Source of the DNA: an uncultured candidatus Porisulfidus sp.
Lineage (GTDB): Bacteria; Pseudomonadota; Gammaproteobacteria; Poriferisulfidales; Poriferisulfidaceae
Reading direction: 5' to 3'
DNA: 64,000 nucleotides
Assembly: GCA_958431155.1 (NCBI GenBank)
Contig: OY288106.1
Location: 567,937 to 631,936 of the forward strand
Shown: positions 1,920-41,994 of the stretch, piece after piece
Position numbering within the stretch: position 1 is the stretch's first letter
How the letters are laid out: each line of letters begins with the position of its first letter
Notes under the pieces: generated by a model
Told to the model about the DNA's origin: nothing
Seen by the model: the letters and a program-made list of their open reading frames with translations, nothing else
The model's database searches: none
Translations under genes and position numbers: made by a program

Positions 1920-4900
1920 TTAGAGTAGCACCTGGCGCTCAGAGGTGTCTGGAGTCCCGTGAGGTATTTTTGCGTGGAGATGGATTGCTGTGACTGCAGG
2001 TACAAGCATCATCATTATGGCCGTGGTAAAAAGAATGCCGAAACCAAGCGATGCGGCAAACGGGACAAGAAACTTTGCGTGAATTGAGCGTTCAAGAATC
2101 AGGGGTGTAAAGCCGAGGAAAGTAGTCACTGAGGTCAGCAAAATCGGGCGAAAACGTCCCTTGGCGCCATCAATGATCGCGGTCCGCGCTGGAGCACCTT
2201 CCCTGAGTCGCTGGTTGATGAAGTCGATCATCACCAAGGAATCGTTTACCACGACCCCACTCAGGCCAACAAAGCCAAACGCGGATGTGCTACTGAAAGG
2301 GATATCCAGAATCAAGTGACCCAATATGGCTCCCACCAGCCCGAACGGGATGACAACCATGATAATAAACGGTTTGGTATAGGAGCGAAGGGGGATTGCC
2401 AACAGACCGTAAATTACAAGCAGCGCAAGAATCAAACTGCGATTCAATGCGTCAAATGACTCGTATTGTTGTTGCTGTTCGCCTCCTAATACATACGTCA
2501 GATTTGGGTTGGCGGCAATAAGTTCTGCCAGCATCGAATTTTCCAAGATAGCATTAGCTTCCCCACCTGAAATTATCGCTGGGGCAACGTCCGCTGTTAC
2601 CGTGACTACGCGATGTCCATCTTTGCGTCGAATGGCAGGCGGTGAAATGTCTTGGCTCAGTTCGGCGATTGCACGCAAGGGCACCTCGGCCCCCTCTGGT
2701 GTTTGAATCAAATAGTTTTCAATTTCGTTGATGGCGTCACGTTCGTCGGTAGGCAAACGTACATATACCCGAACCTCCTCACGACCGCGTTGCATCCGCA
2801 GGGCCTCCGCGCCAAAGAAGGCGGCACGTGTCTGCCGAGCCACCTCGTCAAGAGTAAGACCGAGAGTCCGTGCTTCTGGCCGCAGTTCAATCTGTATTTC
2901 CCTAACGCCGGGGGTATGATCAGAGCGTACATCGAAAACACCTGACAAGCTGCTCAGGCTGTTTGCCAAGGAACCTGCGATTTGGTTGAGGCGCTCTGGG
3001 TCTGGGTGCGATAGTGCGGCCTCGACAGGATTACCCAGCTCAATCAGCCTGCCGCTGAAGGTGAGGCCGCGCACATAGGGCAGGATACCCACTTCTTCTC
3101 GCCATGCCTCCACGATCTCTCCTGCCGTAATGCGACGCTGCTGCGCACTCAGCAGCTTGAACTGGATAGTAGCGATATTGGCTGGTGGATTGAGAGTAGG
3201 CTCTGGAACGAGCCCTCCGCCCTCGACTCGTGCACGCATGCCTACAGTCAAAGTCACCCCGGACAACAAAGGAGGCACATCCTTGGGCCGGTCGAGCGTG
3301 AGTCGTTCTATCGCTCGAAGTCCCGCTGCCTCCAGTTCCCTTGCCACCTCGTAGGTTCGCAACGCAGTGGTCCCTTCGGGCATCTCAAGATTGGCTGTTA
3401 CAAAGTCTCCTTCCACCGCTTCAGTGAAGCTGGTCTTAACGATTCCGGCCGGAAGCAGGGAGACACAAACGATAAATATGCCGATGGCTGCAGCAATCGT
3501 CACTATGGGCTGGCTCGTCGCGAACCGCAACATTCGATCCAATGGGCCTTCCAGAAATCCGTTCAGGCTGCGATTGAAATAGCTTTGGATGCTTGTGAAG
3601 AATCGATCTACAGGGTTTGTTGGCGCCCATTCTGGGCCGTGTAAGTGAGATAAGTGATTCGGCAGGATTAGCAACGATTCGATCAGGGAAATCATCAACA
3701 TGGCGATCAGCACTATGGATACAGGACGCATGATGTCGCCGATGCCTCCAGGAAGAAACAGCAAAGGAGTAAATGCCACCACTGATGTGAGCACAGCAAA
3801 GATCAACGGCGTCTTAATCCGTCTTGCGCCGCGCACTGCTGCGACAATACCCGGCGTACCCTTCTTGCGTTCGTAGTGGACGTGCTCGGCTACCACGATA
3901 GCGTCATCGACAACGATACCAATAGCAAGAACAAACGTGAACAGGGATACGGAACTGAGCGAAAGGTCGAATACATGCATTACGGCCACGGCACCAATAC
4001 CCGATAGGACAAGACCTACGGCGACCCACAAGGCGAGGCGAATCTCGAGAAACAGGGTCAAGGCGATCAAGACAAGCAACAGACCCAGAAAACCGTTTTT
4101 GAGGAGGAGACCGGCGCGTTCCGCATAGATCTGGGATTCGTCGTTCCAAATGGTGACATTTATGCCTCTCGGAAGAGATGGAGTCACCACGTGAGCGATG
4201 TGTTCTCGCACGGCTGTGGCGACATCCATCACCCTTTCGTCCTCCGACCGGTAGACCTCGACAAACGCGGCGGGCTGACCCTGATGCCGGACAATCAAGT
4301 CGGTGTCCCGAAACCCATCACGCACTGTGGCGATATCACGCAGGCGCACGATGGTGCCGTCACTACGGCTGAGTACGACAATCTCCTCAAAATCCTGTTG
4401 ATCGTAGCTCTGGCCGAGGATACGCACACGCACTTCGGATTCCCGGGTATTAATACTGCCAGCCGACAGATCAAGGGAACCGTGGCGAATCGCATCTGCA
4501 ACATCTTCCAGCGTGAGTCCTAGGGATCTAAGTCGCCGCAAAGGCACCTCAATGGAGATTTCATAGTGCCGCACACCACTGGTTTTCACATCAGACACAT
4601 CATCAAGAGTGGCCAATTGATCCTCGATCAAGTTCGCGGCTTCCTTGAGCGAGTGCTCGGAGACATTGCCATAGACAATTAGACGGATTACGCTTTGACG
4701 ATTGGTCATCTCCCTGATCCCGGGCCGCTCCGCGCCAGCCGGAAATGACTGAATCCGGTCAACGGCAGATCGGACATCATCCAGCGCTTGACTCATATCT
4801 GCCCCCGATTTCATTTGGATTCTTACGGAAGCCATTCCGGGAGCTGCTACTGATTTGACCGCTTTTACATCATTCAAGCCGCTGACCTGTTCTTCAACCT

Positions 4901-34166: not shown

Positions 34167-34487
34167 GTGACAAGTGGGTTTATGCGCAAAATTAGGATTG
34201 ACACACAGTATATCGAATTGACAAAATGCGCCTTTGCTGGGGATACAAAATGTATGGAGGGCTTGCGACTTTCTCGTAATTATCGATTTTGGTAATCCAC
34301 TCCGATTTCCGTCTCCGGTCAAAAGATCTCCAGTTCCAGTCTGGGGAGCCGAATGCCGGATCGTCTTTCCAGATGCTGTTCACCCTGGTGCTAGCGGCAC
34401 GCCATGCGTAAGGGCCGCGATAGAGTTCGTGCGCCGTGTCGACGGGTCGGAGGGGCGCCGCTGGCGAGATGCCCGTCGGCAGTGGCG

Positions 34488-34598
34488 CAATGGGAGGCTG
34501 TCTACAACCGGATCCGGCCCCATGTAAGCCTCGATTTGATGACCCCGTCAGAATACGTCAGGGAACATTTGCCAAGCGATGTCTGTTCCGAAAAGTAG
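34488..34598 (+). pseudogene. Integrase-core (DDE) transposase, C-terminal remnant
   Basis: The frame reads QWEAVYNRIRPHVSLDLMTP then SEYVREHLPSD. The YNxxRPHxSLxxxTPxEY pattern is the C-terminal end of rve-type transposases (IS3/IS481 and relatives). No upstream catalytic domain is found, and the preceding 80 bases are not transposase-like in this frame. It marks the left boundary of the surface-protein island. The stretch 34167-34487 otherwise holds nothing I recognise. Confidence 0.7.
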
Positions 34599-34615
34599 TA
34601 GACCTGTGCACGAGG

Positions 34616-34645
34616 TTGTCAAAGCACACTTAAGCGAGTTATACT
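34616..34645 (+). promoter_or_regulatory. Autotransporter promoter (sigma70-like)
   Basis: TTGTCA (34616-34621), an 18-base spacer and TATACT (34640-34645) fit a good sigma70 promoter. Transcription would begin near 34652 and give a leader of about 100 bases that contains the 12-G tract. Confidence 0.6.
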
Positions 34646-34694
34646 CAAAGGGCAACACCCAAACGGCAACCCGACGCCCTGTGTGTGGAATCTC

Positions 34695-34706
34695 GGGGGG
34701 GGGGGG
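34695..34706 (+). repeat. 12-G homopolymer in the autotransporter leader
   Basis: Twelve consecutive G residues lie 45-56 bases upstream of the autotransporter ATG, downstream of the predicted promoter. Tracts of this length are prone to slipped-strand mispairing and are a hallmark of phase-variable surface genes. See findings for the reading-frame analysis. Confidence 0.9.
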
Positions 34707-34750
34707 TCGTTTAGGGCAAGGATGTTGAACGCTAGACATGGAGTGTCGTT

Positions 34751-37700
34751 ATGCGAAAGACGAGATGTGCGAGAAGCGCTGAATGCTCTCGCGGAGACGG
34801 TAGCGCACATGGCGCTTCAAAAACGATCTTACGCCGCCACGCATGGTGCGGCGCGGGCATACTGTTCTTCAGCGCCGGATTCACCGCGCAGGCGCAGGAC
34901 TTCATACCGACGCCCCAGTGCACCACAAGCGGCCAGACGGTCACCTGCGAAGGCGACTTGTCGTATTTGGAGTTGTCAGAAAACAATTACACCACGCTCA
35001 GGGTGGAAAATCTAACCCAGGATCTTGCTCCTCCCGCTGGGACAGGGGGAATCACGTTTCATTCCAGTAATGATGACATCAATCTCGACATCAATACTGG
35101 CGAGAATAGCATCCGCACCTCGGGTTCGGCAAGCGAAGGGATCGACGCCAGTTCCGGCGGCAATGTTACGGTCGACGTAACGGGCCACATCACGACTACG
35201 GGCAACGACAGCCAAGGGATCGAGGCATATACCGATGGAGCCGGCGAGGTGATGGTCACTGTGACGGGCGATATCACCACCGAAGGTAATGAAAGCGGAG
35301 GGATTGACGCAAGGTCCGAGGATGAGAACGATCCCAGCGGTGGCGGCGCGGTGACGGTTACCGTGGTAGGGGATATCACCACCAAGGGTCTCGAAGACAG
35401 CGAAGGGATCTATGCACGATCCGCAGGCGACGCCAAGGTGACGGTGAACGTGACGGGCGACATCACCACCGAGGGTGGGTGCAACGACATGGGCGGGTGC
35501 AGCGAAGGAATCCTTGCCGAGTCCGACGGCGCGGTTGAGGTAACCGTGGCGGGTCATATCAAGACCACGGGCGAAAATAGCCAAGGGATCGAGGTGGATT
35601 CCAATGGAGTTGGCGATGTCACAGTTGACGTGACAGGCGATGTCGCGACCGAAGGCGAGGACAGCGAAGGGATCTTTGCACAGTCCGAGAACGGCGCGCT
35701 GAAGGTGACGGTGAAGAGCGCCGACATCACCAACGGTGCTATCACCACTGAAGGCGAGAGCAGCGAAGGGATCTTTGCACAGTCCGAGGGCAACGCTCCC
35801 GTGACGATTGACGTGACGGGGAACATCAGGACCAAGGGCACAGACAGTGAAGGGATCGATGTGGAGAGCCGTGGCACCGGTGTGGTTGGGGTGACCGTGA
35901 CGGGCGATGTCACCACTGCGGGCGAGGACAGCAAAGGGGTTGATGCCCAGTCCAGGGGTGGCGCGGTGACGGTGACCGTGACGGGCGATATCACCACCGA
36001 GGGCATCGAAGACAGCGAAGGGATCTATGCACGGTCCAGGGATGATGCTGCGGTGACGATTGACGTGACGGGGAACATCAGGACCAAGGGCACAGACAGT
36101 GAAGGAATCGATGTGGAGAGTAGCAATACCGGCCCGGTAACGGTGACCATGACGGGCGATATCATCACCGAAAGCGACGAGACCGACAACACCAGAAACC
36201 ACGGGATCCATGCCCTGTCCCGTGGCGGTGCTGTGGTGGTGGCGGTGAGGGGAAATATCTGGAATAAGGGCACAAACAGCACAGGGATCGATGTGGAGGG
36301 TAGGGATGCCGGCGCGGTGACGGTGACCATGACGGGCGATATCACCACCGAGGGCGAGTCGAACGAAGGGATAGCTGCCCGGTCCGACGACGGTCCCGTG
36401 ACGGTGACCGTGGCGGGCAACATCAACGCTAAAGGTCCCGGCAGCGACGGGATCGATGTCCGGTCCGATGGCGACATCGACATCACGCTGAAGGGAGGGA
36501 CCGAGGGCAGCACCATCGCCAGCACCGAGGCCCGTGGTGTCGAATTTCGTGGGGGCGCGACCAACACGTTGACGATCCACGATGCGGTGACGATCTCCGG
36601 CGCATCATTTGATGTGCGAGGGAGTGGCGGCAACGAGACGATCAACAACTACGGCACGCTGACGGCCCTCGGCAATATTGATCTGGGCGACGGAGTGAAT
36701 GCCTTCAACAACCGGGAAGGCGCGACATTCCATTCCGGCAGCCTGGTAGATCTCGGTGCCGGCAATACCTTCACCAACTGGGGCAAGTTGTCGCCGGGCG
36801 GTGCGCACGCGGTACAGCACACCACCCTCATCGGCAATTTCGTGAACCAGCCAGAGGGCATACTGATCGTCACCATCGACCCGGAGACGGAGAGTAGTGA
36901 CAAGCTGAGCGTGGCTGGCACGGCTACTCTTCAGGGCAGCATGTTGAGAGTCACAGGCATCACTTATGCCGATGACCGTACCTACACGATTCTGGAAGCT
37001 ACTGACGGGGTTGCTGACAGATTCGCCGATGTAATCGACACGCTATTCATCGACAATAGGCTGAGCTATGATGCCGACTCTGTGATGCTGTCTCCCATCA
37101 GCAAGGGCGACAAGTTCGACGACTTTGCCGAAACAGCCAACCAGCGGGCGGCGGCCCGTAGTCTCGACCACCTGTCGATCACCGATGATCTGCCACAGGC
37201 CGTACTAGCGCTGACTACGAAGCAGGACGCACAGGCAGCCTATGAGGCGCTGGCGGGAGAGGTGCATGCCTCCCTCAATGGGGCACTGTTGGACACGGGT
37301 CAACGGCCGGTCGCGGCCATCACCCGGCATCTGACCGCAGGCGCCGGGTGGTGGATGACTGGCTACGGCACTTGGGGCGACACCGATGCCACGAGCAACA
37401 CGGCGCAGATGGACACGGAATTAGGAGGGGTCCTGCTCGGCTTCGACCATAGTCTGGACGAACACTGGCGGCTGGGCATACTCGGCGGCTACAGCCATAC
37501 GAGGGTGACCCAGCGGGCCCGGGCATCTGCCGGCTCGGCCGATACCTGGTTGGTCGGTCTGTATGGTGGGGCCGAGACCAGAGCATTGAACCTCCGCTTC
37601 GGCACGATCTACAACGGGCATTACTCCCTGGAGGCCAACCGTGCGGTCCGCTTCACCGGCTTCTCCGAGCGGCTTTCGGCGAGTTATAGTGCTTGGAGCT

Positions 37701-38625: not shown

Positions 38626-41600
38626 TCAGAACCGGAGCTGACCCCGTAGCATGACGCCGTGCTCGGCCGAGCCATTGGCCGCCTCGTGGCGCTCGCCTTC
38701 AAGGCTGAGCTGGAGCGTCGACCCGATTTCGAAGCGGGTTCCGATCCGGTAGAGTTGCGACCCTTCACCCGCCAGCGAGAATACGCCGTAGGGCGTCAGC
38801 AGTCCTTTTCCGCCGAGCACGCCTAAGCCATAGCCGAGCTCACCGTCCAGCCGCATTTGCGGGATGTCGTCGTTGGCCGCCCGGTCGATCATGCCGTCAT
38901 TCCACAACTGCTGGACACCGCTTTGCGTCTCGCCCCAGGTCGGAGCCAGACTCACGGATAGGCCGCGGCTCTCGGTGCCGGGATCGAGGCGAACCAGTCC
39001 ACCGATACCCCATTCTTCGTAGTCGTCCCGGTGAGCCACCAGAAGTCGCCCGCGGCCCTCTACCGTCAGACCCAAAGCTGGGTCCACATAGCGAAGACTG
39101 CCACCGACCTCGACGCCAACGCCGGTCACCGCGTCACCATTGTCGTGTCGAAGTCCGAGTTGCGCCGATGGGATCAGGCGCCCACCCGAGCCAAGCTCGT
39201 GCTCGTGGCTGCCCTCAAAGGACAAACGAAGACGGCGGACGTCCGAGATGAGCGGATTGATCCGGCCGTTCCCCTCGACCTTGACCCGCGCCAGCGAACC
39301 CTCGCCCTTGAGTCTGAGGGTCGTCGTGCCCCCGACGATCAGGTCGTCGTTCGAAAGCAGTTTGAAGCTTGCTCCCGCCGCTACCGTCCTCATTTCGGTG
39401 TCGCTCGACTGTGTCTCCACGCCATCTTCGTCGATCTCGATATCGCCTTCCCCGTAGCCCACCGTCGCCCACAGACTCAGTCCTTCGGGTCGAGACCAGC
39501 TCACGTAAGGATACACGCTGGCCATGCGACTCTCATAGCGGCCATCCACGACCAAGAGGTCAGTCCTGTCCGTAAAATTGAACGAACCCCGGGACCGGGA
39601 CACCGACAGTCCGGCGAGAAGATCGGGCCGTATCCACATATCCGCACCCAGATGAAAATTGAGCAGGTCGCCATCCCAGTCCACCGCGCTGTCCTCGCCA
39701 CCCGACAGCTCGCGGTAGTCGCCGCTGCCCCACACCACAAGACCGCCCATACCGCCTACTCCGCCATCCTCGGCTGCATTGAGCGGCAGTACAAACGATG
39801 AACTGCCCAGCAATTCAGCAAAATCCAGCGTGCCGTCCTCCAGTGCTTGCCCACTGGACTGCAAAACGTGAAAAAGCTGTGAGTCGCCCGCTAAGTTGAA
39901 TGCTCCCGCCGGGATCCCCGAGACCGCTGCATCCATACGACCCGTGATCGCAGACAGCGTGCTCGCCGCTATCGCCTGGGCCACGTGTGGCAATATCTCC
40001 TCGTTGACCCGGTTTATCCGCGCAAGGGCAGCCGTCACCCTGATACTTACATCGTCCGGCATAGACGTGTGTACCCCGTCGCTCACCGTCAATCTGAACG
40101 TCAGCGTCGTGTTCACTGGCAGCTGCGGCGCCACGAACGTCGGTCGAGACGGCGTGCTGGTGTCCAGCACTACTCCGGACCCCGGCTGTCCTGCAACTGG
40201 TGCCGTCTGAACCCAGGTATACTCCAGTTCGACGCCCTCAGGATCGCTGCTGCCGGTACCGTCCAGCATCACCGTATCCCCCTCGCTCACCAGCGCGTCG
40301 GCCGTAAACCCCTGGTCTGGACCCGCATCGGCCGTCGGAGCGTCGTCGTCCGCCGTCACCCTGATACTCACATCGTCCGGTATAGACGTGTTCACCCCGT
40401 CGCTCGCCGTCAACCTGAACGCCAGCGTTGTGTTCGCCGGCAGCTGCGGCGCCACGAACGTCGGTCGAGACGGCGTGCTGGTGTCTAGCACTACTCCGGA
40501 CCCCGGCTGCCCTGCAACCGGTGCCGTCTGAACCCAGGTATACTCCAGTTCGACGCCCTCAGGATCGCTGCTGCCGGTACCGTCCAGCATCACCGTATCC
40601 CCCTCGCTCACCAGCGCGTCGGCCGTAAACCCCTGGTCTGGACCCGCATCAGCCGTCGGAGCGTCGCCGGCCGCCGTCACCCTGATGCTCACAGTGTCTG
40701 TATCGTCCGCCGTCAAGCTGTCCGCGTCACTCACCGTCAAACTGAACGTCAGCGTCGTGTTCGCCGGCAGCTGCGGCACCACGAACGTCGGTTGAGACGG
40801 CGTGCTGGTGTCCAGCACCACCCCGGACCCCGGTTGCCCTGCAACCGGTGCCGTCTGAACCCAGAGATAGGTCAGCATGTCGTTATCCGCATCGCTGCTG
40901 CCGGTACCGTCCAGCATCACCGTGTCCCCACTGCTCACCAGCGTGTCGGCCGAAAACCCCTGGTCCGGACCCGCATTGGCTATCGGAGCGTCGCTCACTG
41001 CCGTCACGTCAAAAGTGAAGGAGTACGTCGAGTCGCTGTAGTCCCAGCCATCATAGACCCTGAAGTTGAACGTCGTGAAGTCGTCGCCACTATCGTTGTC
41101 CGGGGGGGCGTACTTTAGATTGCCATTGGTAAGCTCGGTCGCCTCCACCACTTGGGGAGCACTGCTGATGGCCGCTCCGTCGAGCAACAGCACCCCCTCG
41201 TTGCCCCCAGGCAGCGAGGTGATTTCCACGCGAGCCAACGGGTCGCCGTCGCCGTCGTTGAAGCCGAAGCTCGACACCGTAAAGGTGTGCTCCGTGTCCT
41301 CGTCAATGGACACCTCCTGGGGCGAAGCCGTGGGAGGAGTGTTTGCCGCCCCCACCCTGATTTTAATCGCTCTGCTAACAGAGGTCTCTCGCCAAGAGGT
41401 GTTGCCGGTTTTACTGCGAAAGTAGTATTTTTCGTTGATGATCCACCCTGGAGCCGCGCCGATATCTTGATTGTTGGAAGACGTATATCCCACTCTATAT
41501 GCATTGTTGCTGCGGGTATAGGCCATGTACACGAAATAGTAAGTGTTTGCAGCCAGCTCGGGGCAGGAAGAATCGGCTCCGAATCTCCGGAGTCCGATCT

Positions 41601-41994
41601 CCAAGTCTTCTGGGTTACTCAAGGTGCATAGCTCAGTGCCTGGCTCGCCCGTTAGGCTCTCTATCGAATACAATCCTACCCTCACTCCACCGCCGCTGTC
41701 CGGCTCTCCGGTTAGGTAAAGTTGGATACTTCCCAGTGTGTAGCCTGGGTCCCCTGTATTCCCGCCCGTCATAAACCCTTGAGCAAGGTCGGTCAGATTC
41801 AGTGAGAGGTCACTATCGTCGGCTTGATTAATGTTGCTCACGAGCTCGGCCTCGTCCGCTTGCACCGGCGCCGTGAAAACGAGGAGCAATGCGGCGGCGA
41901 GAAATGTGCCTGTTCGAACTAGTTGGGGAGGGGGGGATGAGAGAGGTGCGTTGAAATTTCCGGTGTTGTTGATCTTGGGCTGTGCATCCTTCAC
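38626..41994 (-). CDS. Outer-membrane beta-barrel protein with PKD/cadherin-like repeats
   Basis: A 1122-residue secreted protein. GTG start 41994 has AGAGG upstream; the signal peptide is TGTFLAAALLLVFTAPVQA-DE. An N-terminal domain of about 190 residues is followed by a cadherin-like unit (EVSIDEDTEHTFTV). Three PKD/REJ-like repeats of about 107 residues follow (DAGPDQGFTADALVSEGDTV, MLDGTGSSD, TFVAPQLPANTTL). The C-terminal half is rich in alternating hydrophobic strands, with WGSGDYRELSGG and a terminal Phe (GVMLRGQLRF), typical of autotransporter-like barrels. Probably a surface adhesin. It converges with the other autotransporter. Confidence 0.82.
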   Translation of the reverse strand: MKDAQPKINNTGNFNAPLSSPPPQLVRTGTFLAAALLLVFTAPVQADEAELVSNINQADDSDLSLNLTDLAQGFMTGGNTGDPGYTLGSIQLYLTGEPDSGGGVRVGLYSIESLTGEPGTELCTLSNPEDLEIGLRRFGADSSCPELAANTYYFVYMAYTRSNNAYRVGYTSSNNQDIGAAPGWIINEKYYFRSKTGNTSWRETSVSRAIKIRVGAANTPPTASPQEVSIDEDTEHTFTVSSFGFNDGDGDPLARVEITSLPGGNEGVLLLDGAAISSAPQVVEATELTNGNLKYAPPDNDSGDDFTTFNFRVYDGWDYSDSTYSFTFDVTAVSDAPIANAGPDQGFSADTLVSSGDTVMLDGTGSSDADNDMLTYLWVQTAPVAGQPGSGVVLDTSTPSQPTFVVPQLPANTTLTFSLTVSDADSLTADDTDTVSIRVTAAGDAPTADAGPDQGFTADALVSEGDTVMLDGTGSSDPEGVELEYTWVQTAPVAGQPGSGVVLDTSTPSRPTFVAPQLPANTTLAFRLTASDGVNTSIPDDVSIRVTADDDAPTADAGPDQGFTADALVSEGDTVMLDGTGSSDPEGVELEYTWVQTAPVAGQPGSGVVLDTSTPSRPTFVAPQLPVNTTLTFRLTVSDGVHTSMPDDVSIRVTAALARINRVNEEILPHVAQAIAASTLSAITGRMDAAVSGIPAGAFNLAGDSQLFHVLQSSGQALEDGTLDFAELLGSSSFVLPLNAAEDGGVGGMGGLVVWGSGDYRELSGGEDSAVDWDGDLLNFHLGADMWIRPDLLAGLSVSRSRGSFNFTDRTDLLVVDGRYESRMASVYPYVSWSRPEGLSLWATVGYGEGDIEIDEDGVETQSSDTEMRTVAAGASFKLLSNDDLIVGGTTTLRLKGEGSLARVKVEGNGRINPLISDVRRLRLSFEGSHEHELGSGGRLIPSAQLGLRHDNGDAVTGVGVEVGGSLRYVDPALGLTVEGRGRLLVAHRDDYEEWGIGGLVRLDPGTESRGLSVSLAPTWGETQSGVQQLWNDGMIDRAANDDIPQMRLDGELGYGLGVLGGKGLLTPYGVFSLAGEGSQLYRIGTRFEIGSTLQLSLEGERHEAANGSAEHGVMLRGQLRF
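40031..40672 (-). repeat. Two near-identical 321-base tandem repeats inside the PKD region
   Basis: The block starting GCCGTCACCCTGATACT at 40031 recurs at 40352, exactly 321 bases (107 codons) later, with only about 15 differences by eye; the halves nearest 40351 and 40672 are almost identical. A third, more diverged copy starts at 40673. The high identity points to recent duplication or gene conversion and allows in-frame expansion or loss of whole repeats. Confidence 0.85.

Follow-up and report, generated by a model that had tools for sequence, protein, structure and literature searches.

The autotransporter gene at 34751 of the window (the whole 64-kb stretch of DNA that was analysed) is preceded by an uninterrupted run of 12 G, which is located between its promoter and its start codon. 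This raises the question of whether the tract is a slippage switch and, if it is, how it could control a gene from outside the coding frame.

Poly-G tract and autotransporter gene

When sequence, ORF and PF03797 match were checked, the G12 tract, the promoter, the GGAG and the ATG of the autotransporter gene were all found where the sequence-only reading had placed them (Table 1). The promoter is the sole sigma-70-type match in 34300-34900, a region in which 0.2 matches were expected from shuffles. If transcription starts about seven bases past the -10 box, the mRNA 5' end would be near 34652 and the transcript would begin with CAACACCCAAACGG. The predicted order is transcript start, G tract and ATG, and the G12 tract is placed as in uspA1, that is, as a poly-G 5' of an autotransporter ORF and outside the coding frame.

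The PF03797 beta-domain is complete and C-terminal (residues 867-1113 of 1134 aa), and the hydrophobic signal region ends at AQA-Q, as judged by eye in the ORF. With its predicted signal peptide, repeat passenger and C-terminal PF03797 beta-barrel, the deduced protein is a classical (type Va) autotransporter. A second autotransporter (1122 aa, with PKD and cadherin-like repeats) is encoded tail to tail with this gene at 38626-41994 of the minus strand, and the 250 bases 5' of its listed start contained no long run of G or C.

The G12 tract is the only run of at least 8 G in the window. Nine runs of at least 9 G were found in the whole host genome, a closed single contig of 1,593,361 bp, and the three longest (13, 12 and 11 G) all occupy the same site of related leaders, described below as cassette leaders; outside these leaders no run reaches G11. 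A simple Markov model, derived from a 160-kb sample enriched for G runs, gave an expectation of ~0.6 runs of at least G12 per genome, and the real runs of 5-7 G were about two-fold rarer than this model predicts (tract counts were taken from pattern searches). The cassette tracts exceed the genome background, as those of contingency loci do, and G12 before the PF03797 gene is a pure tract of more than ~7 nt beside a surface-protein gene, the usual mark of such a locus.

Table 1 Features of the window and its leader, cassette copies in the host genome and poly-G loci of same-genus genomes
Feature	Location	Strand	Basis or remarks
Transposase/integrase C-terminus fragment	34479..34598	+	PF13683 rve_3, E 1.4e-4, below curated cut-off; adjoins promoter upstream
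Shared cassette (promoter, leader and first ~36 codons, ~245 bp)	34607..34856	+	blastn; homology of window copy ends at these borders
Sigma-70-type promoter TTGTCA-N18-TATACT	34616..34645	+	TTGTCA 34616-34621, spacer 18, TATACT 34640-34645
Predicted 5'-terminal leader hairpin	34653..34731	+	RNA folding per copy and consensus fold
Uninterrupted G12 tract	34695-34706	+	Flanked by C and T
Main-frame TAG	34712..34714	+	Directly 3' of tract; kept in 4/4 copies (GTTTAGGG)
Shine-Dalgarno GGAG	34740..34743	+	7 nt 5' of ATG 34751; kept in 4/4 copies
Autotransporter gene, 1134 aa	34751..38155	+	ORF; PF03797, E 2e-56
Cassette copy of window	~602.6 kb		Tract G12; gene 1134 aa
Cassette copy	~471.1 kb		Tract G13; gene 4400 aa
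Cassette copy	~1311.7 kb		Tract G11; gene 1188 aa
Cassette copy	~1318.9 kb		Interrupted tract GAGGGGGAGGGG; gene 2361 aa
D12 methyltransferase, poly-G at FGGGG motif	L073:4318-5196 (G004), L043:~2900-3731 (G001), L037:~2900-3732 (G002)
Two N6_N4_Mtase and one N6_Mtase methyltransferases, 5'-end G11	L044:1373-3049, L049:1431-3017 (G001), L076:5082-7424 (G001)
Related autotransporter, 930 aa	L038:336-3128 (G002)		In-frame C15 between likely start and signal peptide

A four-copy cassette in the host genome

When the leader was compared with the host genome using blastn, three further copies were observed, with identities to the window copy of 90 % (at ~471.0 kb), 85 % (at ~1318.8 kb) and 81 % (at ~1311.6 kb). 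An intact autotransporter-type ORF follows the cassette in all four cases and each of the four proteins has a PF03797 match. The copy with G13 stands before a 4400-aa repeat-rich autotransporter ORF (L057:4141-17343), which is found in a genome of 1.59 Mb. Promoter, predicted hairpin, tract position, ribosome-binding site and signal-peptide start are common to the four loci, and the tract length differs (12, 13, 11 and interrupted); these lengths were compared only between paralogues of one assembly, and assembled homopolymers may be off by one. The promoter parts GGTTG and TTATACT are identical in the four leaders. Over the first 35 codons, which the copies have in common, purifying selection was detected in the main frame and in neither of the other two frames.

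At the DNA level the window gene matches its three paralogues over the cassette only, and its passenger and beta-domain are not shared. Thus, at this locus a compact 5' cassette has been combined with another passenger and another beta-domain. The three other paralogues are also alike in long DNA stretches beyond the cassette. Upstream of the promoter there is a transposase fragment in the window copy and the 5' region of an IS30-like transposase in two other copies, and the third has the same upstream non-coding stretch. These upstream sequences suggest that recombination may have occurred at insertion sequences.

A 22-mer of the leader was absent from IMG/VR and from 84,980 species genomes, a set from which the window's own or very near genomes were possibly excluded. 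The leader was not found in the same-genus or same-order genomes searched. Searches with an alignment of the signal peptide and with a covariance model gave matches in the host genome only, apart from one match in genome G002 that was disregarded (E=0.8).

Reading frames around the tract

The sequence-only reading had held that the tract cannot bring an upstream start into the main frame, and this applies to all four copies. In addition to the TAG at 34733, the main frame contains the TAG at 34712, and GTTTAG 3' of the tract stops this frame in every copy, which prevents any upstream start from being joined to the protein. Frameshift-type phase variation of the autotransporter was therefore rejected: no reading frame joins the tract to the protein in any of the four copies, and the switch cannot be a frameshift of the gene.

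The same reading had proposed that the tract tunes translation through a short upstream frame, which starts at GTG 34683, crosses the tract and would interfere with the main start, or allow re-initiation there, in a length-dependent manner. The frame does overlap the main start and reach 35015 at 12 G. However, the stops for other lengths had been miscalculated: recomputation gave 34714 instead of 34735 at 13 G and 34728 instead of 34782 at 11 G. No Shine-Dalgarno sequence precedes any GTG, across the four copies the frame that starts at the homologous conserved GTG has its end at -39, -25, +106 and -25, counted from the main start, and the non-main frames lack purifying selection. It is for these reasons that we consider an upstream-ORF mechanism very unlikely. 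A hidden promoter had also been suggested. Promoter-spacing switches are known for other bacterial genes, and here the tract would have to lie between the -35 and -10 boxes of a second promoter; but no hexamer pair was detected across it in 34300-34900, and the sequence that follows it (CGTTTAGGG) is conserved as a hairpin arm instead. This is the least probable of the explanations considered.

Predicted structure of the leader

Action through leader structure, the remaining proposal of the sequence-only reading, is the one that gained support. In the predicted fold, CAACACCCAAACG (34653-34665) is opposed to CGTTTAGGG...TGTTG (34708-34728); the 5' block CAACACCCAAACGG pairs with CGUUUAGGG and UGUUG 3' of the tract, and the inner C runs pair with the G tract, which sits within the 3' side of the hairpin. 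Invariant columns make up 28 of 29 in the hairpin arms and 36 of 53 in the leader outside them (Fisher p=0.002, for a structure chosen after seeing the data). No compensatory changes were found in the hairpin across the four copies and its stability is at most modestly above that of shuffles (z -1.8 to 0); thus, the hairpin is plausible but not proven. An Rfam scan of the leader region gave no family match.

The ribosome-binding site lies 3' of the hairpin. Its predicted accessibility in the window leader was 0.64-0.71 over 6-16 G, except for 0.42 at 8 G; in the 471-kb copy it did not change, and in the 1312-kb copy it ranged over 0.41-0.58. Occlusion of the ribosome-binding site by tract length was rejected, because the predicted accessibility is nearly flat over G9-G16. 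The near-invariant arms and the location of the tract inside the predicted hairpin favour tuning of the transcript level or of the leader RNA, as described for Moraxella uspA1 or Helicobacter tlpB.

Poly-G tracts in same-genus genomes

The host genome is most likely from a genus whose members are sulfur-oxidising symbionts associated with sponges. Among the genomes compared, G002 corresponds to 'Candidatus Porisulfidus sp. TsSOB', a sulfur oxidiser from a sponge metagenome, and G004 to Gammaproteobacteria bacterium APA_bin_21. Tracts of at least G10 were observed in all five same-genus genomes. A D12 DNA adenine methyltransferase is intact with G13 in G004 and frame-broken at G15 in G001 and at G16 in G002, where there is also a deletion beside the tract; it is a candidate phasevarion of the genus. 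Three further methyltransferases carry G11 at the 5' end of the gene (Table 1). The related autotransporter of G002, with its in-frame C15, is a candidate for a frameshift-type switch.

Other tracts were recorded in these genomes. At L061:4940-5010 of G003, a short ORF (MFSYTLKQWW) is followed by G12 and then by an out-of-frame signal-peptide-like stretch (LTFALLAALVTLPMPAMA), and the locus looks like a switched-off secreted protein. Intergenic tracts of 12-15 G were observed at L050:2038, L052:5002, L038:2998 and L072:4853. Their flanks are partly similar, with AAATCAGYTAGA before and ATGCCGCGGCAAAAACGGC after the tract in two of them, and these tracts are perhaps a repeat family of the genus. 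Runs of at least 50 G at the ends of draft contigs (G003:C20, G003:C29 and G001:C25; L062, L065 and L075) are probably assembly or sequencing artefacts.

Possible roles of the tract

Passive expansion has to be weighed against any switch. According to this explanation the leader hairpin is functional and the G run is a neutral homopolymer that travelled with the cassette when this was duplicated or copied by gene conversion. All copies derive from one ancestral cassette, so the three long tracts are not independent observations. Furthermore, one tract is interrupted though its gene is intact, and long G runs occur elsewhere in the same-genus genomes, some without an obvious role and some at contig ends. 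On the other hand, nothing else in the host genome attains the length of the cassette tracts, a pure tract was kept in three of the four copies at 10-19 % divergence, and the comparable tracts of the genus break methyltransferase frames, as contingency loci would. We regard passive expansion as rather unlikely.

Two mechanisms at the RNA level were also considered. In a RepG-like control, the G tract of the leader would be bound by a small RNA that acts in trans through a C-rich loop, and the degree of repression or activation would depend on tract length. The anatomy is the same as that of the Helicobacter pylori tlpB leader, and the several leaders that share the target would form a small regulon; however, no candidate small RNA was identified, the Rfam scan was empty and the leader's own C runs partly occupy the tract in the predicted fold. 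Such a control is improbable in our view. The other mechanism, which we rate slightly lower still, is an RNA G-quadruplex switch, in which at least 11 G would fold as a two-layer quadruplex that replaces the hairpin and changes transcript decay or initiation. When quadruplexes were allowed in ViennaRNA, exactly 11 G was the point at which the three pure-tract leaders exchanged the hairpin for a quadruplex; the interrupted copy retained its hairpin, and the natural tracts have 11, 12 and 13 G. Nevertheless, simple arithmetic is enough to give a threshold of 11; RNA quadruplexes with only two layers also tend to be weak, and their energies come from a crude model.

A probable contingency element in a reusable cassette

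Slippage-driven phase variation is the best reading of the tract, as the genome has no longer G runs than the three pure tracts and poly-G splits methyltransferase genes in the genus. The idea of a slippage switch in the 5' leader of the autotransporter gene is strengthened as a candidate by the G11, G13 and interrupted paralogues and by the in-gene poly-G of the same genus, and its upstream-ORF mechanism is what has to be given up. Our conclusion, held with moderate confidence, is that the tract serves as a contingency (phase-variation) element within a reusable 5' cassette and would tune the autotransporter mRNA. G residues would be gained or lost by slipped-strand mispairing at replication, and the tract length would then alter the amount of autotransporter mRNA made or kept; an effect on mRNA is proposed in view of the position of the tract, which is transcribed as part of the leader and falls within the 3' strand of the predicted 5'-terminal hairpin. 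The outcome would be a graded rheostat, set separately at each of the three pure-tract loci. The interrupted copy GAGGGGGAGGGG should slip far less and be nearly fixed, and its gene would be expected to hardly vary. Against the contingency reading, length differences between paralogues at 10-19 % divergence do not prove fast switching, a single assembly was available, and the hairpin is modestly stable and free of compensatory changes. A mutator explanation was rejected; MutS and MutL are both encoded in the host genome and no mutator background is therefore seen.

A more specific proposal is that the transferable promoter-hairpin-poly-G-signal-peptide cassette is a plug-in RNA rheostat. Recombination would copy the cassette before unrelated surface-protein genes, and the tract length would decide whether the mRNA 5' end folds as a protective hairpin or takes up a quadruplex or open form. 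We consider this unlikely. If it is true, each giant autotransporter of the sponge symbiont would be set independently and the interrupted copy would be nearly locked.

Comparison with known systems

The closest placement is that of uspA1 of Moraxella catarrhalis, in which a G(n) tract upstream of the ORF sets the mRNA level, low at G8-10 and high at G11-12 (PMC7302503). Both tracts (~8-13 G in uspA1) lie 5' of a surface autotransporter ORF and outside its coding frame. UspA1, however, belongs to the trimeric autotransporters and has a leader of its own, whereas the leader, predicted hairpin and signal cassette of the window are common to four large beta-domain autotransporters of a probable sponge symbiont, one of them with an interrupted tract. 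In the tlpB-hp0102 system of H. pylori, a leader repeat of 6-16 G is read by the small RNA RepG, with repression at 7-12 G and activation at 14 G or more (PMC8295292). The G repeat is likewise within the mRNA leader, and graded control is likewise what we propose; but the targets here would be autotransporters, and the tract is embedded in a predicted 5'-end hairpin.

Repeat-tract switching is also a feature of phase-variable DNA methyltransferases, of which modM of M. catarrhalis is one, and poly-G is present in methyltransferase genes of the genus studied here. Tracts of this kind shift the reading frame within the gene itself, which the window tract cannot do. Stabilising 5' stem-loops of the ompA type are hairpins at the very 5' end of outer-membrane-protein mRNA. 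The predicted leader hairpin resembles them in position and in the kind of mRNA that carries it, and differs in that its stem holds a slippery G run.

The best-documented cases of repeat-tract phase variation come from host-adapted pathogens, including human pathogens, and no paper describing it in sponge symbionts was recognised among the titles listed by a literature search. What is new here is a putative poly-G switch that serves as a reusable cassette before several giant surface proteins of a probable animal symbiont, and that probably varies the amount of protein per cell. The four leaders (11, 12, 13 and interrupted) are a ready-made natural test series. Taken with the methyltransferase tracts of the genus, the shared poly-G leader points to surface diversification in a long-term symbiont by the same means as in pathogens.
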